DNA of 34,225 bases, from assembly GCA_020686985.1 (NCBI GenBank), contig JAJEPU010000037.1, forward strand, positions 1-34,225. Direction: 5' to 3'. The notes under the pieces were generated by a model. That model did no database searches, was not told the DNA's origin, and worked only from the letters and a program-made list of their open reading frames with translations. Position numbers and translations under genes: made by a program. Positions 6,608 to 34,175 of this stretch are shown piece by piece. This stretch comes from Brotaphodocola catenula (GTDB taxonomy: Bacteria > Bacillota > Clostridia > Lachnospirales > Lachnospiraceae). Every line of letters starts with the position of its first letter. The stretch's first letter is position 1.

Positions 6608-7261
6608 ATGAAAAAAGGAAGGGCTGTCCTGACCGTACTTCTGTGTTCTGCTACGCTTCTGGCAGTGGGATGCGGAAAGAAAGATGCGGACTACACATGG
6701 AACGCCAAGGAAAGCAGTATCTACGTCAGCAATGAGCTTGAGGTGGAGAGTGCACTGGTCTATACGTCAGAACAGTTTAATGAACTTTATACGCAGGAAG
6801 GCTTGGAAGAATTTGCAAAAGAGGCGGTAATCCGCTATAATGAAGAACAGGGTGCTTCGGCTCAGGCGGAAAACACCGAGGGAAGCGAGAAACTTCCGAC
6901 CGCTCTTGTATCGACGAAACTTGAGAGCAGAACGGGAACCCTGATTTTTGATTACAAGAGTGCAGAGGACTTTGTCAAATTTGCAAAAGAGACAGAGGAT
7001 GACACGAATACGGTGACTGACTTGAAAGTGGGAACGGTTTCGGATAGTCTTCCGGACGGGATGACATTCACAACCCTGTCAGGAAAGACGGCGGAGTCTT
7101 CGGAGCTGACAAAGAATGCAGAGACGAAGATGATCGTTGTCACCGGATCTGCAACGATCTGTACACAGGGAAAGATTTCCTTTATCAGCGATGGAGTGAC
7201 TGTGACAGATTCTCACACGGCAGTGACACCGGAAGGTACGAGCTGTATCTTATTCCAGTAG
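6608..7261 (+). CDS. Predicted lipoprotein of unknown function
   Basis: A 217-residue exported protein. The N-terminus is a lipoprotein signal: KKGR, a hydrophobic stretch, then LLAVGC with the lipidated cysteine at C22. The mature part is acidic and hydrophilic with a short low-complexity stretch near residues 77-92 (EEQGASAQAENTEGSE) and beta-rich sequence after it. I do not recognise a named domain. The ATG is 7 bases after AGGAGG (6595-6600). It has its own promoter at 6450-6478 and lies between recO and glyS, a position where Lachnospiraceae often carry such a lipoprotein. It may be co-transcribed with glyS, since no terminator lies between them. Confidence 0.8.
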   Translation: MKKGRAVLTVLLCSATLLAVGCGKKDADYTWNAKESSIYVSNELEVESALVYTSEQFNELYTQEGLEEFAKEAVIRYNEEQGASAQAENTEGSEKLPTALVSTKLESRTGTLIFDYKSAEDFVKFAKETEDDTNTVTDLKVGTVSDSLPDGMTFTTLSGKTAESSELTKNAETKMIVVTGSATICTQGKISFISDGVTVTDSHTAVTPEGTSCILFQ

Positions 7262-7375
7262 TCTGAATCAGAGAGATTCAAGGGGATTTGATTTCCTTGA
7301 AGTTTTTGATGGATTTGGGCGATGGATCGAGAAAGATATAGAAATAGTAGTATAGAAGAAAGAGGTTATTGGACA

Positions 7376-8764
7376 ATGGAAAAGACAATGGAAAAGATTG
7401 TAGCACTGGCGAAGAACCGTGGATTTGTATATCCGGGATCTGAGATCTACGGCGGACTGGCAAATACCTGGGATTACGGCAATCTTGGCGTTGAGCTGAA
7501 GAACAACGTAAAGCGTGCTTGGTGGCAGAAATTCGTTCAGGAGAGCCCGTACAACGTAGGCGTTGACTGTGCAATTCTGATGAATTCCCAGACCTGGGTA
7601 GCTTCCGGTCATCTCGGTGGATTCTCTGATCCGCTGATGGATTGTAAGGCTTGTAAGGAGCGTTTCCGCGCTGATAAGCTGATTGAGGATTACATGGCAG
7701 AGAACGGCATCACTCCGGAGGGTTCTGTCGATGGATGGAGCCAGGAAGAGATGAAGCAGTACATCGATGAGCACAACATCTGCTGTCCGAGCTGTGGAAA
7801 GCATGATTTCACCGACATCCGTCAGTTCAACCTGATGTTCAAGACCTTCCAGGGCGTAACCGAGGATGCAAAGAACACCGTATACCTTCGTCCGGAGACC
7901 GCACAGGGTATTTTCGTAAACTTCAAGAACGTACAGCGTACTTCCAGAAAGAAAGTTCCGTTTGGTATCGGTCAGATCGGTAAGTCCTTCCGTAACGAGA
8001 TCACCCCGGGTAACTTTACTTTCCGTACCCGTGAGTTCGAGCAGATGGAGCTGGAGTTCTTCTGCAAGCCGGGCACTGATCTCGACTGGTTCGCTTACTG
8101 GAAGGAGCACTGCATTCAGTGGCTCAAGAGCCTCGGTATCAAGGATGATGAGATGCGTGCGAGAGACCATTCCGCAGAGGAGCTGTGCTTTTACAGCAAG
8201 GCAACAACGGATCTGGAGTTCCTCTTCCCGTTCGGTTGGGGCGAGCTGTGGGGAATCGCAGATCGTACCGATTACGATCTGACCCAGCATCAGAATGTAT
8301 CTGGACAGGATATGACCTACTTTGATGATGAGAGCAAGGAGAAGTACATCCCGTATGTCATCGAGCCGTCTCTGGGTGCTGACCGTGTAACACTGGCATT
8401 CCTGTGCTCCGCATACGATGAGGAGGAGATCGGTGAGGGCGATGTTCGTACCGTTCTGCACTTCCATCCGGCAATCGCACCGGTGAAGATCGGTATTCTT
8501 CCGCTGTCTAAGAAGCTCAACGAGGGCGCTGAGAAGATCTACGCTGAGATGAGCAAGTACTACAACTGTGAGTTTGATGACCGCGGTAACATTGGAAAGC
8601 GTTACAGAAGACAGGATGAAATCGGAACTCCGTTCTGTATCACCTACGACTTCGAGTCTGAGAACGATCAGGCAGTAACGATTCGTGACCGTGATACGAT
8701 GGAGCAGGTTCGCGTGCCGATCGCAGAGCTGAAGAATTACTTCGAGGATAAGTTCCGCTTCTAA
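7376..8764 (+). CDS. glyS: Glycyl-tRNA synthetase (single-chain, dimeric type)
   Basis: This enzyme charges tRNA-Gly with glycine using ATP. It is the single-chain class II form, unlike the alpha/beta tetramer of many bacteria. The class II signatures are visible: motif 2 around [21 protein letters not shown] and motif 3 in EPSLGADR. The N-terminus [19 protein letters not shown] is typical of the family, and so is the C-terminal anticodon-binding domain. The protein is 462 residues from the ATG at 7376, with AGAGG about 10 bases upstream. The frame opens further to an ATG at 7322, which lacks a ribosome site and adds residues not found in relatives. No T-box leader fits into the 114-base upstream spacer. 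A strong terminator follows at 8805-8864. Confidence 0.96.
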
Positions 8765-8804
8765 AATTATTTCAATATAATAAGTATCGTAATTGTCAAA
8801 AATA

Positions 8805-8864
8805 GCTGTTGCAGAGCAGGGAGGCTCCCAATGGGGACGCCTTGCTTTGTAACAGCATTTTTTT
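8805..8864 (+). terminator. Terminator after glyS
   Basis: GCTGTT (8805-8810) pairs with AACAGC (8851-8856); inner segments AGCA..GGCTCCC and GGGGA..GCCTTGCT extend the stem. It is followed by ATTTTTTT. Confidence 0.8.
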
Positions 8865-8873
8865 GAGGAAAGT

Positions 8874-9773
8874 GTGAGAAGAGAGATGGATAGAAAACAA
8901 GAAAACCAAAAGGCACAGAGCACACAGACAATCCATTGCGGGAAGGCTGTGCAGGAGACAGCTATTCTGACAGGAGCAGTCGCAATCATTGCGGGTGCTG
9001 TTTACTTTTTTCTGATGCCGAGCCACACTTCGATCAGCAGTATTTCCGGTCTTGGAATTGTACTGTCGAATTTCGTTCCGCTTCCGCTGTCAGCGATCAC
9101 GATGATCCTCAATGTGGCACTTCTGATTGTCGGCTTTTTTACCTGCGGGAGGGAGTTTGGGGCGAAGACAGTGTATACAAGTATCATTTTGCCTTTGTTT
9201 CTCGCACTCTTTGAGAAGGTATTCCCGAATTTTACATCCTTGACGGACAGTCAGGAACTTGATGTGGTCTGCTATGTGCTTGTGGTCAGTGTCGGATTGA
9301 GCATTCTGTTCAATCGCAATGCGTCCTCCGGCGGGATTGACATTGTTGTTAAGATTATGAACAAGTATCTGCACATGGATCTTGGAAAGGCAATGTCGCT
9401 CTCCGGCATGTGTATCGCGCTCTCCGCGGGTCTCGTCTACGACAAGAAAACCGTTGTTCTCAGTGTGCTTGGAACGTATTTCAATGGAATCGTCCTCGAC
9501 CATTTCATCTTCAATCACAATGTCAAACGGCGTGTCTGCATCATCACAAAGAAAGAAGAGGAACTGCGCCGTTTTATCCTCAATGATCTGCACAGCGGGG
9601 CGACGATCTATGAATCGATCGGTGCTTACAACATGGAGAAGCGAAATGAGATCATCACGATTGTCGACCGAACGGAGTATCAGAAACTGATGAACTACAT
9701 GAACCGCAAAGATCCACATGCGTTCATCACGGTCTACAATGTCTCTGACATTCGCTATCAGCCGAAAAAATGA
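8874..9773 (+). CDS. YitT family membrane protein with DUF2179 domain
   Basis: About 295-299 residues. The N-terminal two thirds form a YitT membrane domain with roughly five hydrophobic helices, including a glycine-rich conserved segment around NASSGGIDIV. The C-terminal part is a soluble DUF2179 domain (RRVCIITKKEEELRRFI, LHSGATIYESIGAY, ITIVDRTEYQKL, FITVYNVSDI). The family is widespread in Firmicutes; the transported substrate, if any, is not established. The start is uncertain. GTG at 8874 follows GAGGA closely, and ATG at 8886 in the same frame has only an adjacent purine tract. The gene begins right after the glyS terminator and converges with the DUF3842 gene, with only 29 bases between the stop codons and no terminator seen. 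Confidence 0.88.
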   Translation: MRREMDRKQENQKAQSTQTIHCGKAVQETAILTGAVAIIAGAVYFFLMPSHTSISSISGLGIVLSNFVPLPLSAITMILNVALLIVGFFTCGREFGAKTVYTSIILPLFLALFEKVFPNFTSLTDSQELDVVCYVLVVSVGLSILFNRNASSGGIDIVVKIMNKYLHMDLGKAMSLSGMCIALSAGLVYDKKTVVLSVLGTYFNGIVLDHFIFNHNVKRRVCIITKKEEELRRFILNDLHSGATIYESIGAYNMEKRNEIITIVDRTEYQKLMNYMNRKDPHAFITVYNVSDIRYQPKK

Positions 9774-26232: not shown

Positions 26233-28494
26233 TTATTTTCCCAGTTTCCAGATATCCTTGTTGTACTCGGCGATTGTGCGGTCGCTGGAGAAGAAGCCTG
26301 CCATTGCGATATTTACAAGGCATCTGCGTCTCCACTCCGTTGGATTCAGCGCATAGTTGGCGAGTGCCTGACCCTTGCGGACAACGTAAGCATTGAAGTC
26401 CGGCAGAGTCTGGAACCAGTCTTTGCTGATCAGCTCGTGCTGGAGACGATTTAAGTTCTCCTCGTGACCGGCAGAGAGCATCTCCTTGGAGGTCAAAAAG
26501 TCGATTGCACGGCGCAGGTTCGGATCGCCCTCATACCACTCGGAAGCCTTATAGTCGCCAAGTTCGTAGCGGTGGATGACCTGATTGGAGGTCTGACCGA
26601 AGATGTAGATGTTGTCGTTTCCGACTCTCTGGCTGATCTCGACATTAGCTCCGTCCATCGTGCCGAGGGTCAGAGCGCCGTTCAGCATGAACTTCATGTT
26701 TCCGGTTCCGGAAGCCTCCTTGGAAGCAAGGCTGATCTGTTCGGAAAGGTCACATGCCGGAATCAGTTTCTCGGCAGCGGTTACGTTGTAGTTCTCCACA
26801 AAGACAACCTGAAGCCACGGAGAAACCGCCGGATCGTTTGCGATGACCTCAGACAGTGCAAGCAGGGCATGAATGATATCCTTTGCGATGATGTAGGCCG
26901 GTGCTGCCTTTGCGCCAAAAATGCTTACAAGCGGAACAGGCGGGAGATGACCTGCCTTGATCTCACAGTACTGGTGAATCAGGTAGAGGAGATTCAACTG
27001 CTGGCGCTTGTACTCGTGCAGACGCTTGGACTGGATGTCAAACATGGCTTCCGGATTTACGGTCACGCCCTGAGTGCGAAGGAGCCAGTCAGCAAGAGCC
27101 TTCTTTGCGGTGGATTTGATCTCGGTGAGCTTATTCAGTACATTCTCATCGTCCGCATAGGTCAGCAGTTTCTCAAGCTCATCGGCATTCTTGCGGAAAC
27201 CGGAACCGATCAGGCTCTCAAGTTCCTCTGCAAGAGCGGGGTTACACTCTAAGAGCCAACGGCGGAACGTGATGCCGTTCGTCTTGTTGTTGAATTTCTC
27301 CGGATAGAGCTCATAGAATCCGTGAAGCTCAGACTCCTCAAGGATCTCGGTGTGCAGGGCAGCAACGCCGTTTGTGGAGTGGGTGAAATGGATATCCATA
27401 TGAGCCATATGAACGCGGTCATCCTTATCAATGATCGCAAGACTCTTGTCTTTCGTGCGCTTGCCAGCGAGCTCGTCGAGCTTTTCGATGATCGGCATCA
27501 GCTGAGGAACAACCTTGTCGAGGTAAGCGCGTGGCCATTTCTCAAGTGCCTCTGCAAGAATCGTGTGGTTCGTGTAAGCGCAGGTCGCAGTCACGATCTC
27601 AACCGCCTCCTCAAACTTGATTCCGTGCTCTCCGAGGAGACGAATCAGTTCCGGGATCACCATGCTCGGATGCGTATCGTTGATCTGGATTGCCGCATAG
27701 TCAGCGAGGTCGTGGTAATTGCATCCGCGTGCAACGCACTCTGCGAGAACGAGCTGAGCACCTGCGCTGACCATCATGTACTGCTGGTAAACTCGCAGGA
27801 GGCGTCCTGCCTCGTCGGAATCATCCGGATAGAGGAAGAGCGTCAGGTTCTTTGCAATCGCGGTCTTGTCAAAGGAAATGCCCTCCTCGACGATGCTCTC
27901 GTCAATCGTGTCAAGGTCAAACAGGTTCAGTGTGTTCGTGCGTCCCTCGTAACCGGTGACAGCCAGCTTGTAAAGGCGGGCAGTGTAGGATTTTCCGGCA
28001 AGTTTTACCGGATAGGTGATGTCAGTCTTCTCAGCCCAGGAGTGCTCGGTCAGCCACGGGTCCGGCAGTTCATTCTGTAAATTATCCTTAAACTGCTGAT
28101 GGAAGAGGCCGAAGTGGTAACGCAGACCGATTCCATCGCCCGGCAGGTTCAGGGTTGCGAGAGAGTCGAGGAAACATGCTGCGAGACGACCAAGACCGCC
28201 GTTTCCAAGAGACGGCTCCGGCTCAACTTCCTCGATTTCACTCAAGGATTTTCCGGCATCTGCGAGGGCAGTGCGAACCTCATCATAGAGACCGAGGTTG
28301 ATCAGGTTGTTGGACAGCAGTTTTCCAATCAGGAACTCTGCACTGATGTAGTAGAGCTTGCGTCCGGTTACCGGAGTTGCCTTCTTTGCGCTGTTCTCAC
28401 GGATCAGATCGAGCAGGGCAAGATAGATCTCCTGATTTGTGCAGTCGGCAAGTGATTTTCCTGTAAGTTTCTGTAACGTTTCTGTCATATTCAT
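26233..28494 (-). CDS. glgP: Glycogen/maltodextrin phosphorylase
   Basis: A 753-residue GT35 enzyme that releases glucose-1-phosphate from alpha-1,4-glucans using phosphate. The pyridoxal phosphate lysine is K601 in ASGTGNMKF. Other signatures are the N-terminal [19 protein letters not shown] and [27 protein letters not shown] and [11 protein letters not shown]. It is shorter at the N-terminus than E. coli GlgP (about 815), which is common in Clostridia. The ATG at 28494 lies 8 bases after GGAGG; the longer in-frame start at 28509 has no ribosome site. It is a single gene, convergent with thiH and divergent from an AraC-type regulator. Confidence 0.95.
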
Positions 28495-28851
28495 AAAAAG
28501 AACCTCCATTCAGGGTTTCCATTAGATTTTAAATTGTTTGCATGTTTCTGATTTCTGTTTTGGCATAAAATTTGGTGTAAGAAGAATTCTCTTGTTTCTT
28601 ACAGCATTGATTATATCGCACAAAACAAGCATAATTCTTGCTTGAAATGGCTAAAAAATGGTACAATACGATCATAATAGGAAGATATCAGCAGAGCTGA
28701 CCAAAATCACGCGCCAGGTCTTTGCGAGTGTCGACTTGAGAAACAATGATAAACACAAGGAGATACAGTCGAAGGTGAGAAAACGTGGGAAAATGCAAAC
28801 ACACATATAATAAATACGCATATCAGAAAAACAGTGGGGAGGAAGAATCAT
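28495..28851. other. Divergent regulatory region of glgP and the AraC-type gene
   Basis: No gene is seen. A TATAAT for glgP lies at 28610-28615 on the minus strand without a good -35. It is followed by an inverted repeat TGTAAGAA-12-TTCTTACA (28576-28603) at the probable start of transcription. A plus-strand promoter lies at 28638-28667 with a leader of about 180 bases to the AraC-type gene. Confidence 0.55.
28638..28667 (+). promoter_or_regulatory. Promoter of the AraC-type gene
   Basis: TTGCTT, an 18-base spacer and TACAAT. Confidence 0.5.
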
Positions 28852-29937: not shown

Positions 29938-30513
29938 ATGGATGTACTGGATGAGTGGATATGCGGATTGACGGAATATTTGACGGAAAACAATCAGCCG
30001 ATTGATACAGGAAATTTTAAGAATAAATGGCTGAATCTTTTTCAGAAAAAGGTGAAAAGACCGCAACTGGAAGAGTTCATAAAAGTGGAAAGATCTGATT
30101 CGCCGGAGATTACAAAGCGTGCAGATTACACGAGAAAAGATGTGAAAAATCTTGAGGATCTGATTCAGGAACTCGGGGAAACCTTTCATGAGATGCTGTT
30201 TCGCAAGATCGACGAGAGTGGAATGTCGGACGCGGAGGTTTATAAGAAGGCAAATCTCGATCGAAAGCATTTTTCAAAAATTAGAAATAATCCGGCATAT
30301 CATCCGCGGAAGGGGACGATTCTTGCGCTTGCAATCGCACTGGAACTGGATTTGGAAGAAACGGTGGAATTTCTTGGAAAAGCGGAATATGCGCTTTCAC
30401 CGGGAAATAAAGGCGATCTGATTGTCCGATATTTTATTGATCAGGGAGTGTATGACATTAATGTGATTAATTATGCGTTGGATTACTTTGAACAGCCGAT
30501 GCTTGGAAGTTAA
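29938..30513 (+). CDS. Helix-turn-helix protein of unknown role, first gene of the caspase cluster
   Basis: A 191-residue soluble protein. Residues about 75-160 look like an XRE-type helix-turn-helix region: MSDAEVYKKANLDRKHFSKI, then RKGTILALAIALELDLEETVEFLG. The C-terminal part (GDLIVRYFIDQGVYDINVINYALDYF) is a helical extension that I associate with a clostridial family of small HTH proteins of unknown target. The first 75 residues are charged and helical, with no domain recognised. The ATG follows AGGGAG at 10 bases. It could be the regulator of the downstream genes, or a sensor partner of the caspase; the sequence does not decide. Confidence 0.7.
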   Translation: MDVLDEWICGLTEYLTENNQPIDTGNFKNKWLNLFQKKVKRPQLEEFIKVERSDSPEITKRADYTRKDVKNLEDLIQELGETFHEMLFRKIDESGMSDAEVYKKANLDRKHFSKIRNNPAYHPRKGTILALAIALELDLEETVEFLGKAEYALSPGNKGDLIVRYFIDQGVYDINVINYALDYFEQPMLGS

Positions 30514-30659
30514 AGGAAGATCGAAGAGAGGGGGATCGAATGATGAAAGAGAGAGTAAGGTGGTAGCTGGCAGAAAGATGACAAGAAACGGTGACAGAGC
30601 AGAAAAATGGGAACAGAAAATGATGATGGCTGATGTGATGTGAGAGGAGAAAAGTAGCG

Positions 30660-31007
30660 ATGAAGGAGACGTATATCACAGATCGGGAATTTCAGAATTT
30701 GATGGAGGATCTGACCCAGAAACTCGAAAATGGAGAAATTGGTCAAGCAAAAGAAGATTTGCAGAAAGCCTTGGAGGACGTAAGGGAGAGAAAGTCGTAT
30801 ATTGATCGGACATACCTGTCGCAGTTGAAAGACCAGAAGCGTCGTACCAGGATTTCAGAGATCACAACGATGCTGAACAATATGAACAACGAGCAGGTCG
30901 AAAATGTCTATGTCTATGCGGTGAATGAGTATGATGAGCCGAATCATGAGGCGGTTGCGCTGGACGCAATTATTCGCCTGAGCAGAGAGCGCGGAAAGAA
31001 CGAATAG
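30660..31007 (+). CDS. Small charged helical protein, unknown function
   Basis: A 115-residue soluble protein, nearly all helix. The first half is coiled-coil-like (FQNLMEDLTQKLENGEIGQAKEDLQ, ALEDVRERKSY). The second half has a compact motif, MLNNMNNEQVENVYVYA, then EYDEPNHEAVALDAIIRLS. I do not recognise a named family. The ATG is 10 bases after GAGAGGAG. It stands 146 bases after the HTH gene (30514-30659 is purine-rich with no gene) and 36 bases before the caspase gene. Close spacing suggests that it works with the protease, for example as an adaptor, inhibitor or substrate. That is inference only. Confidence 0.65.
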   Translation: MKETYITDREFQNLMEDLTQKLENGEIGQAKEDLQKALEDVRERKSYIDRTYLSQLKDQKRRTRISEITTMLNNMNNEQVENVYVYAVNEYDEPNHEAVALDAIIRLSRERGKNE

Positions 31008-31043
31008 AATCAGAGCATATGTTTTAAAAATTGAGACGGAATT

Positions 31044-32819
31044 GTGGTGCAGAGAAGGATGATACGAAAGAATAACAGAATCAGGATGGTGCTGGAACGC
31101 ATAAAAAAGCAAACTACGGTCAGAGAAAATAGAAATTTGCTTGAAGAAGAGCAAAAAAGCACTGTACAGAAAAATGGACTGCGGGAAGAAGCAGAATTTC
31201 ATGACGGAGGAGAAAAATATGCCCTGCTTGTGTCGGTTGGAAATTATCAGAAACAGAATCTGGTAGATCTGGTAACGTGGAAATCGGATCTGGATCTGAT
31301 TCAACGTGGACTGACACAGGGATTAAAGCTCAAAGAGGAGAATCTTCGTGCGCTGGGATCGGAAGGATGTGTGTCCGTGCGGGAGCTGGCGCTTGCGATC
31401 CAGAATTTTGCAAAGATGCTCAAGAAAGAGGATACGTTTTTCTTTTATTTTTCCGGTCATGGGCGCAACGGAGAGCTGACATTCAGCGATATGGGGCTTG
31501 CGCTTCCAAGTATTCTGGCTTTTATCGGAGAGCTTCCGTGCAAAAATAAGATTGTGATTCTGGATTGCTGTTATTCCGGTGATTTTCAGACAGAAGGTAC
31601 ACGAGGAATGTCATTGGAGGACAGCGCGGAATCCTTTGCGGGGCATGGAATGGCGATTCTGGCATCCTCCTCCGCGAATGAGGTGTCGCGACTCGATGAG
31701 AGTGGACGCTACAGTCTTTATACAGGAATTGTAAATATGGCAATGCTCTCAAGACGAAATGTTCGGCAGGGGTGTGTTTCTCTTCATGCAATTCAACAGA
31801 ATATTCAGGAACTTATGGAGATCTGGAACAGCCGTTATCCGGAGCACAGACAGCAACCGATCTTTCGCAGCAATATCGGCGGAACGATTTATTTTGAAGT
31901 AGAACCGTGGCATCCACAGAAACCGCAGGAAATAAATGGGATACATAGAGAAAATGAATTTTATACGATCTGTTCCACAAAACCATTGGATACGGCAAAA
32001 CTCAAGCGACTCAGCGTTTTTGTGATTGCAAAAAGAACTTCAGACGGTTCAAGTGACTCACAAGATTTAAAAGACTCAAGCAAGATTTCTCAGTTGACCA
32101 AGAGGATTGTGGAGGAAATCTGTGGGACGGGGCACTATGATGCGATCTGGTGCTATTTTGGTTACGATGAGAGCGACATCATCCATCATCTTTACTATGC
32201 ACACAGCGTCTGGGCAAGAAATGATGAGTTACAGAAAATGTATTTTCGGGCTTCCAAAGATTCTTTCGTGCAGGACGGAATTTGTGTGGTGGAGAATACC
32301 TCCTACCGAATGCTTCGCAGAATGAGGGAAGAGAACCAGGCGGGTTCAGCGCAGAGTGCGGAGCGTGATTCGGAACATTCTGGAAACTTAGGAGAGAAAG
32401 CACCGGGAAAATTATCAGGGGCAAACTTATCGGAAGAAGAATATGTGCTGGAAACGAAAAAGATTCTCGTAGAAGTCGTTTCTCTCGCAGAAAAATTCCT
32501 GGTCAGTTTTCAGGAAGTCGCAAACCATACGATTTCCGCAGAAGAAGTGAAAGTCCATTACCAGGAGTGGAGCCGTCGAGTGAAGACTCTTTATCTTCGA
32601 CTTTCAGATGGAGCAATCCCACCGGATCACTTGTATGCGTGGACGGAGCAGGTTGTGGACGTGGCAGGCTGTGTGACCGATCTGGCAATTCTTCTGGAAG
32701 AACAAAATCGGAGTAACAAGAATGGGTTTGATGAGAGAGGAAGCTGGCTGATGAATCATGCAGTGAAGCAGTATTATGAGGGGCTGGAGAAGTTGAAGGA
32801 GGTGGAGAAAAAGTTATGA
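31044..32819 (+). CDS. Caspase-family (C14) protease with unassigned C-terminal half
   Basis: A 591-residue protein. Residues about 57-285 form a caspase/metacaspase p20-like domain: YALLVSVGNY, the catalytic histidine H139 in FYFSGHGRNG, and the catalytic cysteine C176 in ILDCCYSGDF, then ILASSSANEVS and an SLYTGIV segment. The dyad is intact, so it should be an active cysteine protease, cleaving after Arg or Lys if metacaspase-like, or Asp if caspase-like. Residues 300-425 form a domain I cannot assign (LKRLSVFVIAKR, YDAIWCYFGYDESDI). A hydrophilic linker (about 427-460) and a helical C-terminus follow. No signal peptide or membrane segment is seen. The start is uncertain: GTG at 31044 or 31047, or ATG at 31059, all with weak ribosome sites. 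It is the central gene of the 29.9-34.2 kb cluster. Confidence 0.85.
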   Translation: MVQRRMIRKNNRIRMVLERIKKQTTVRENRNLLEEEQKSTVQKNGLREEAEFHDGGEKYALLVSVGNYQKQNLVDLVTWKSDLDLIQRGLTQGLKLKEENLRALGSEGCVSVRELALAIQNFAKMLKKEDTFFFYFSGHGRNGELTFSDMGLALPSILAFIGELPCKNKIVILDCCYSGDFQTEGTRGMSLEDSAESFAGHGMAILASSSANEVSRLDESGRYSLYTGIVNMAMLSRRNVRQGCVSLHAIQQNIQELMEIWNSRYPEHRQQPIFRSNIGGTIYFEVEPWHPQKPQEINGIHRENEFYTICSTKPLDTAKLKRLSVFVIAKRTSDGSSDSQDLKDSSKISQLTKRIVEEICGTGHYDAIWCYFGYDESDIIHHLYYAHSVWARNDELQKMYFRASKDSFVQDGICVVENTSYRMLRRMREENQAGSAQSAERDSEHSGNLGEKAPGKLSGANLSEEEYVLETKKILVEVVSLAEKFLVSFQEVANHTISAEEVKVHYQEWSRRVKTLYLRLSDGAIPPDHLYAWTEQVVDVAGCVTDLAILLEEQNRSNKNGFDERGSWLMNHAVKQYYEGLEKLKEVEKKL

Positions 32820-32924
32820 TTGATTTTTAGATAAAGAGTAAACGGAATATTTTTATTGAAAAGAGAATGGAAATTTAGATAACGTATGGATGAGTTACGA
32901 AAAAAATATTTGGAGGTAAATGAG

Positions 32925-33368
32925 ATGTTTTGTCCAAAATGTGGTTCAAGTGTGGAAGAGGGAGCAAAGATTTGTCCGAAGTGCGGATTAGATTTCTCTA
33001 CTATAAAGCAGGAACAGAGTGCAAGTGTAGTGATATCTACTGCTACCACCGAGAATCGTTCTGATTCAAGAGACGGAAAGAATGTAGAAGTATCAGAAGA
33101 AAAATTAGATAAAGTATCTGGAAAATGGATTGTAAGATGTACTTATTTTGGATTGGCAGTAGCGGTCTTTATTATGTTTTTTGTGGCAGCGGGAAATATT
33201 GCTTCCGGTGGAACCGAGATTATGAAGATTCAATCGGTTGGTGGAAAAACGCTTGAGGAAGCCTATTATTATGAATTGGGGGCAGTTTATGCAGGATATG
33301 CAATGATTGCTCGTGCATTTGGTGTATTTTGTGCTTCTGTTTTAGTTTGGCTTGGTATGAAAAATTAA
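32925..33368 (+). CDS. Zinc-ribbon membrane protein 1
   Basis: A 147-residue protein. The N-terminal zinc ribbon has C3, C6, C17 and C20 (MFCPKCG...KICPKCG). A polar linker follows (about 28-68), then two hydrophobic segments (about 72-93 and 120-143, the second ending VLVWLGMKN). The ribbon should face the cytoplasm. I start at the ATG at 32925, placed 7 bases after GGAGGT, although the frame opens at 32886. The AT content is higher than in the housekeeping genes. Function unknown; the caspase gene ends 105 bases upstream. Confidence 0.75.
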   Translation: MFCPKCGSSVEEGAKICPKCGLDFSTIKQEQSASVVISTATTENRSDSRDGKNVEVSEEKLDKVSGKWIVRCTYFGLAVAVFIMFFVAAGNIASGGTEIMKIQSVGGKTLEEAYYYELGAVYAGYAMIARAFGVFCASVLVWLGMKN

Positions 33369-33435
33369 GCGAAAAAATTTATTTATAATAACTAAATGAT
33401 AAGTGGATGAGTGGATAAATCAGGGGGGATTTTTG

Positions 33436-33972
33436 ATGAAAATATGCCCGAAGTGTAAGAGGACATATCAGGATGAGTATCAGTTTTGCACGGTGTGTGG
33501 CTGTAATCTTGAAAATAAAAAAACGCATAAGTGGCATAATAAAAGAAATATGCTTATTGGAATGATAGTGGTGAGCATTGCAATAGTTTGTACAGGTTTT
33601 ACGATTTCAGAACAGAAAAAAATAAGCGATACGAGGAAAATGGTTGAAAATCGTAAAAATGAGAAAGCATTAGAAGAGTATAGAAATACGCCGACGAAAT
33701 CAGATTTAAAGGTAAATAATGATTGGACAACGGAAAAAAGTGGTAGCTATATTTATATTAAGGGAAGTGTAACAAATGTAAGTCGCTCTAAGACGATTCG
33801 TTATTTTGAAGTTGAAGCAAAGTTTTGTGACAATTCTGGAAATGTTATAGATTCCGATTGGACAAATGACAGCGAAGAGCTTGAGCCGGGAGAAACTCGA
33901 AAATTTGAAATTATGCATAAATATAGCAAGGATGAAAAAGATATTCGCTTATCTGTGAAAGAAGTAAAATAA
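33436..33972 (+). CDS. Zinc-ribbon membrane protein 2 with FxLYD-like domain
   Basis: A 178-residue protein. The N-terminal zinc ribbon has C4, C7, C18 and C21 (KICPKCK...FCTVCG). One membrane helix lies at about 39-58 (MLIGMIVVSIAIVCTGFTI), then a charged helix, then an extracellular beta-rich domain (about 105-175) of FxLYD type: IYIKGSVTNVS, FEVEAKFCDNSGNVID, ELEPGETRKFEI. The FxLYD fold is often found on the outer face of Gram-positive membrane proteins. The ATG at 33436 is 7 bases after an unusual AGGGGGG. Strongly AT-rich coding sequence. Role unknown. Confidence 0.75.
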   Translation: MKICPKCKRTYQDEYQFCTVCGCNLENKKTHKWHNKRNMLIGMIVVSIAIVCTGFTISEQKKISDTRKMVENRKNEKALEEYRNTPTKSDLKVNNDWTTEKSGSYIYIKGSVTNVSRSKTIRYFEVEAKFCDNSGNVIDSDWTNDSEELEPGETRKFEIMHKYSKDEKDIRLSVKEVK

Positions 33973-33995
33973 AAAAGAAAGCAGGGGGGATAAAA

Positions 33996-34175
33996 ATGTT
34001 TTGTGGAAAGTGCGGAGCAAATATACCGGATGGATATGAATTCTGTATGAAGTGTGGTACAAAAATTGACATGAATCAGGATAACACAGAGATCGAACAT
34101 GCTATAAATGATAATGATAAAGAAATAAGAAAGAAAAAGATACATAAACCTGAATTATTCACGGCAACGCCGTGA
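33996..34175 (+). CDS. Zinc-ribbon protein 3, apparently truncated
   Basis: A 59-codon ORF, too short for most gene finders. The N-terminal ribbon has C3, C6, C17 and C20 (MFCGKCG...FCMKCG), followed by a charged stretch ending in IRKKKIHKPEL. The ATG follows AGGGGGGAT, almost the same ribosome site as the gene before it. The last five codons (FTATP) and the stop fall inside the hairpin pair at 34158-34192. Where its siblings go on to a membrane helix, this one ends, so it is probably a gene cut short by insertion of that element. An intact short protein cannot be excluded. Confidence 0.6.
   Translation: MFCGKCGANIPDGYEFCMKCGTKIDMNQDNTEIEHAINDNDKEIRKKKIHKPELFTATP

Follow-up and report, generated by a model that had tools for sequence, protein, structure and literature searches.

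A small, mobile and unnamed caspase family with a conserved C-terminal half and its three-gene locus in Brotaphodocola catenula

Many bacterial conflict systems are predicted to use caspase-type proteases as effectors, but the triggers and substrates are known for few of these proteases. Does the row of six plus-strand genes close to one end of a contig of Brotaphodocola catenula (JAJEPU010000037.1, assembly GCA_020686985.1), one of which encodes such a protease, make up an undescribed system of this kind? A sequence-only reading of the window, which is that whole contig (34,225 nucleotides), had proposed that a helix-turn-helix (HTH) protein, a 115-residue protein, a caspase-family protease and three zinc-ribbon genes form a single module. 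The six genes in a row were confirmed with correct coordinates, and the core of the proposal is partly supported, but the six-gene system does not hold. We observe a caspase fold with its catalytic dyad, a conserved C-terminal half, a trio of HTH, 115-residue and caspase genes in two genera, a sporadic spread, and mobile-element or defence genes beside several relatives. Our preferred reading, to which we assign about even chances, is that the trio makes up a defence-type module, accessory and spread horizontally, with the caspase as its latent effector, a cysteine protease, and the C-terminal half of the caspase as the control part, the 115-residue and HTH proteins acting as regulators in the branch of the family to which the window belongs. 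A literature search whose coverage excluded most subscription papers and preprints returned no description of the caspase family or of the trio.

A compact and mobile caspase family

The protease gene (31044..32819, plus strand) encodes 591 residues from a GTG start that is the tool's longest reading, residues 1–55 not being common to the family, and its assignment is carried by Pfam C14, full-length relatives, AlphaFold models and a fold match. The C14 score lies above the gathering score and the His/Cys dyad is present, which places the protein in peptidase family C14; the C14 domain spans approximately residues 58–280 (H139, C176) and is followed by an alpha+beta domain (approximately 300–430) and a four-helix bundle (approximately 464–590). 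His139, Asp174 and Cys176 are invariant in 18/18 full-length caspases of this family, whose members are compact, at about 506 residues. The C-terminal half, which no Pfam or NCBIfam model matches, has invariants of its own in the 18 sequences (K321, R322, Y371, G373, D378, W390, Y421, and N494 in window numbering), and the earlier description of an intact H139/C176 pair joined to a novel C-terminal half is borne out for one unnamed family. A confident AlphaFold model of a relative, that of locus L009 (15 rows, mean predicted local distance difference test score 87.7), shows the caspase domain at residues 1–231, strands and helices at 250–374, and four long helices at 381–505, while the model of the window protein itself (8 rows, mean score 61.1) is poor in the C-terminal half. 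Against solved structures, the whole-protein profile found no match beyond the caspase domain and the C-terminal profile only a borderline one (1ku9, E 0.0092); because whole-model fold searches were filled by caspases, the absence of other folds says little. A SAVED match (15.1 bits, E 0.0048) appeared in one of the four caspases scanned, that of L015, and none in the window protein at E values up to 1.

Relatives of the caspase are encoded at ten loci in genome contigs, most of them full-length with approximately 30% identity to the window protein, on viral contigs (L015 and six further strong matches, L066–L071, of which L069 and L070 are alike and L066, at the end of its contig, is split over two frames), and on a plasmid (L017). 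In four overlapping genome samples, each counting the window's own genome, the caspase was present in 8/299 genomes of the bacterial family (E 1e-10; four of them, the window's own among these, with full-length copies, of which one has an in-frame stop), 4/392 of the order (E 1e-25; one a fragment), 2/391 of the class and, with the C-terminal profile, 3/293 of the phylum; the counts for genomes other than the window's are 3/298, 3/391, 1/390 and 2/292. Of 23 other genomes in the genus, one alone (G005) holds a trace, a decayed fragment interrupted by four stops. At L014:7342-7838, from a species of this genus, decayed caspase pieces lie near a type II methylase. This is a real, small and unnamed family of mobile caspases.

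The mobility is evident where copies from different organisms are compared. Loci L003 and L009 share 92.6% identity over 1807 bases around the caspase gene and L004 and L006 share 91.0% over 1803 bases, yet neither pair has any other alignment longer than 150 bases. These copies delimit a discrete solo unit of about 1.8 kb (L003:7787-9593, L009:7805-9593, L004:7909-9700 and L006:7907-9709) that holds the caspase gene only, lacks a transposase, is preceded by a short hairpin and is 91–93% identical between unrelated sites. The four copies examined have no terminal repeats in common, and a 15-base, 87% inverted pair near both ends of the L004 unit, seen there alone, was taken as chance. Identity confined to such a unit, together with the many decayed copies (L010, L014, L033, and L064), would suit a passenger cargo that has no role in the host and is carried for the elements' own ends, such as the exclusion of rival elements. 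We consider this improbable, since the ratio of nonsynonymous to synonymous substitution rates among five solo copies (10 pairs) is 0.063–0.196, from which we conclude that the caspase is kept under purifying selection, and keeping rival elements out would in any case count as defence. For the pair formed by the window caspase and its closest counterpart, described below, synonymous substitutions are saturated and gave no ratio.

The trio and its second copy

The 191-residue HTH gene (29938..30513) and the gene for the 115-residue protein (30660..31007) precede the caspase on the plus strand. The same three genes stand in the same order at locus L032 of another genus in the same bacterial family (genome G337), where the HTH gene (7132-7692) encodes a protein with 55% identity to the window HTH in alignment, the small gene (7718-7927) a 69-residue relative of the 115-residue protein that is 58% identical to it in the core, and the third gene (7920-9506) a caspase with 39% identity to that of the window. 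The small gene overlaps the caspase start by 8 bases, and downstream of the caspase come a 73-residue open reading frame (ORF) and, by eye, a MATE-type transporter. In the tree the two caspases group together with 100/100 support, and the stem of their clade measures 1.17 changes per column. Among the 20 caspase-bearing loci searched, which included fragments and two duplicates, relatives of the HTH and 115-residue proteins were found only at L032, the partner genes of L067–L071, L092 and L093 having been checked by eye only. Because the partners were found in L032 alone, the trio is a real but narrow unit of two genera, and because the wider caspase family is mostly without them, the HTH and 115-residue proteins would be an addition of one branch and not obligatory parts. 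The trio was thus seen in a second genus of one bacterial family, but not across unrelated Clostridia.

The three zinc-ribbon genes (32886-33368, 33403-33972, and 33996-34175, plus strand), so described in the sequence-only reading, are judged to fall outside the system. The fourth and sixth proteins of the row have zinc ribbons above the cut-off and the fifth an FxLYD domain with a sub-threshold zinc ribbon, but no zinc-ribbon gene stands beside the L032 caspase, and their G+C content is 35.2%, against 44.4% for the trio. On these two grounds, with no search made for their relatives elsewhere, their suggested roles as pores or substrates were dropped, and the stretch 32886-34175 is likely a separate unit cut by the contig end. 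The six-gene module is thus reduced to its first three members, which recur together. On the other side, the gene directly upstream of the trio is an AraC regulator, and further upstream lie genes for thiazole synthesis and, at 26233-28509 on the minus strand, a long ORF that by eye encodes a glycogen phosphorylase. No recombinase was recognised between 28.4 and 34.2 kb, the remaining ORFs of the window having been only partly scanned.

The 115-residue protein is soluble, charged and predicted to be helical, with a conserved core in its C-terminal 60 or so residues and no membrane segment (highest hydropathy −0.12; 0.28 in the L032 copy). Its relatives were found only beside this caspase, in 2/299 genomes once two chance matches are set aside, those of G259 and G028 (E 4e-4 and 8e-4), which were rejected because they lie inside ORFs of 271 and 589 residues in unrelated operons where no caspase was seen. 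A 63-column profile of the core matched one of 200 genomes, the window's own, in a sample for which the inclusion of G337 is not shown, and searches of plasmids, phages and viral contigs for the protein gave nothing. Such a gene, directly before the caspase, overlapping it at L032 and preceded by an HTH gene, invites comparison with a toxin–antitoxin-like or addiction module, in which the caspase would be a toxin restrained by the 115-residue protein, the HTH protein an autorepressor, and the unit chiefly a means of securing its own maintenance on mobile DNA, where relatives of the caspase do occur. However, the partners were found in just one of the 20 loci, so the caspase is tolerated alone, and the solo copies are under purifying selection, which makes this explanation unlikely.

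The HTH protein matches HTH_26 (24.8 bits, cut-off 22), and its C-terminal region of about 120 residues is of an HTH type usually found at the C-terminus of macro-domain proteins, to which it is homologous; two plasmid-borne macro-domain proteins (H22 and H23) share 54–59% identity with the window HTH domain, and three of the seven plasmid matches carry annotations as a macro-domain protein or a deacetylase. The full-length protein was matched only at L032 among the loci seen, while the C-terminal domain was matched in 16/59 other genomes of the bacterial family, at 18 places (L044–L061). A macro domain stands in front of it in 12 of these (by eye), and the flanks inspected at the 18 places, about 1.5 kb each, showed no caspase. 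In viral contigs, 24 stretches fit an HTH pattern and none was confirmed. A vWA-like gene lies close by in 12/18 places (by eye) and some have an ADP-ribosylglycohydrolase-like neighbour; these macro-domain–HTH and vWA-like loci are possibly a system of their own. The HTH domain thus looks like a building block of loci linked to ADP-ribose or stress, one that the caspase trio would have taken over.

Neighbours, control and proposed action

The suggestion that caspase relatives sit in variable places was upheld, as several adjoin mobile-element or defence genes. The L015 caspase, a prophage copy on a 32.8-kb viral contig, has on one side a gene that by eye is holin-like and on the other the integrase, a serine recombinase by Pfam. 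At L069 and L070, it follows by 62 bases a set comprising a C5 methylase, NgoMIV endonuclease and Vsr, and is followed by a ParA-like protein and a KAP NTPase that matches PDC-S49, where PDC denotes a phage defence candidate, that is, a prediction and not a tested function (PMC11514479). At L063, with an integrase near, the caspase begins 149 bases after a trypsin-like protein (PDC-S45, 399.7 bits); this protease directly before the caspase (L063:7257-9774, minus strand) makes a two-protease cascade possible. L092 has a DUF4062 gene, an integrase, the caspase and then PDC-S06 (870 bits), and at L093 the caspase directly follows a RelA/SpoT protein (PDC-S33, 43.5 bits), with a reverse-transcriptase protein near. 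Broken copies adjoin IetAS (L033) and type I restriction with PrrC (L010) or, as noted for L014, lie near a type II methylase. The methylase about 2.9 kb from the L071 caspase is perhaps the phage's own. On the plasmid, the L017 caspase comes after three genes resembling a Tn554-type set, one of which matches an integrase model below threshold; at L067 and L068, it has a DUF5677 gene on one side and, by eye, serine recombinases on the other; at L004, L005, L008, and L009, genes of a transposase, recombinase or conjugative element were recognised by eye alone; and the Enterococcus faecalis copy has topB-like frames downstream, which are parted by another ORF. In PADLOC scans of 21 neighbours chosen by eye, 13 were matched, and at least one match was present at five (L063, L069, L071, L092, and L093) of the 18 intact full-length loci in the tree, and at three broken ones.

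Several points weigh against the trio as a defence-type module. Selection by eye preceded the PADLOC scans of the neighbours, and since no random loci were scanned to give a background rate, enrichment in defence genes is unproven. Three of the defence-flanked copies (L010, L014, and L033) are broken, no recognised defence or mobile gene lies close to L003, L006, L007 and L032 or beside the window trio, the trio itself was seen in two cases from one bacterial family, and the PADLOC caspase model matches the window protein weakly, at 30.6 bits. The protease and regulatory neighbours at L063 and L093, together with an HTH family tied to macro-domain and vWA genes that suggests ADP-ribose or stress signalling, could instead indicate a stress-response regulatory protease that cuts the HTH repressor or the 115-residue protein upon a stress signal and turns genes on without killing. 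Rarity and mobility are unusual for a stress regulator, however, and no target genes are known, and we hold this to be distinctly unlikely.

Under the defence reading, the caspase of this gut-type bacterium probably defends by harming its own cell and has regulators of its own. The C-terminal half would keep the protease latent and sense a trigger or a partner; the released protease would cut host or invader proteins and stop growth, as in abortive infection; the 115-residue protein would most likely hold or license the caspase by binding it or its C-terminal half; and the HTH protein would repress the operon or itself be cut. We infer phage as the trigger, the C-terminal half as sensor, the binding by the 115-residue protein and every substrate. 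Because solo copies exist, the caspase with its C-terminal half is regarded as the working core, whose control the partners refine in one branch. In most hosts the caspase would act as a single gene, provided that it acts at all, and the two small partners of one branch suggest a switching mode.

A related protein may broaden this picture. A Paenibacillus plasmid (NZ_CP054609.1; L082:5452-6789) encodes, before a HEPN-domain gene, a 445-residue protein that has the C-terminal half without the caspase. It aligns with the L009 protein at E 2e-11, keeping the K, R, Y, D, W and Y (13 rows), and with the window protein over the helical part only (E 2e-6). Its N-terminal 170 or so residues had no match in Pfam, PADLOC or NCBIfam, and by their resemblance to similar sequences they may be nuclease-like. 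Tentatively, and drawing so far on this one protein, the C-terminal half, in which an alpha+beta domain is joined to a four-helix bundle and K-R...Y...D...W...Y is invariant, may be a control domain of a new and portable kind whose effectors are interchangeable, mostly a caspase and possibly a nuclease-like domain in Paenibacillus, as would be its upstream partners (none, HTH plus 115-residue protein, or trypsin-like PDC-S45); the window caspase would then be gated by a small binding protein, its first substrate being its own HTH repressor. Being compact and, in one branch, accompanied by two small partners, the family is a convenient system in which to ask how activation of a bacterial caspase can do without a large NTPase or a CRISPR complex, and whether one control domain serves both a protease and another effector.

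Relation to named systems

The nearest named model is caspase_w_EACC1 (NCBIfam), which all 10 family members in the alignment match and by which the two groups of caspase domains are each other's nearest named relatives. The two-gene EACC1-caspase conflict system (Kaur et al. 2020, PMC7159879) likewise has a small gene before a gene with an N-terminal caspase and a further C-terminal part, an order that would fit a divergent branch of that system with the 115-residue protein in EACC1's place. Nevertheless, the window caspase scores 83.4 bits in NF047832, for which the cut-off is 140; the EACC1 protein is described there as having one conserved transmembrane helix, which the 115-residue protein does not have; the C-terminal half is constant here and highly variable there; an HTH gene stands in front here; and our locus is from Bacillota, whereas those systems are mainly actinobacterial. 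Such a branch is, in our view, very improbable. The PADLOC "caspase" model (PDLC02987) matches the window protein and 4/4 relatives scanned, but in the window it covers the caspase domain only, leaving the C-terminal half uncovered.

The Craspase of type III-E CRISPR (gRAMP with a TPR-CHAT protease) resembles the proposed arrangement in having a caspase-like protease effector under a separate sensing part. Here, however, Pfam gives C14 and a weak C13 only, and no CHAT, at E values up to 1, no TPR-like region was recognised, and no Cas gene is among the window ORFs next to the trio. The VMAP and MoxR-vWA ternary systems differ in that no MoxR ATPase or vWA match was found among the six proteins, the next upstream gene is the AraC regulator, and the downstream side past the contig end was not seen. 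With type I and II metacaspases and animal caspases the window protein has in common the fold match and the His/Cys dyad, at a sequence identity of 14–21%, while its bacterial C-terminal half is unmatched. The macro-domain–HTH proteins beside vWA genes are like the window HTH protein in the HTH domain itself, at 50–58% identity for the nearest, whereas in the window this domain stands without a macro domain and is partnered with a caspase rather than a vWA protein.
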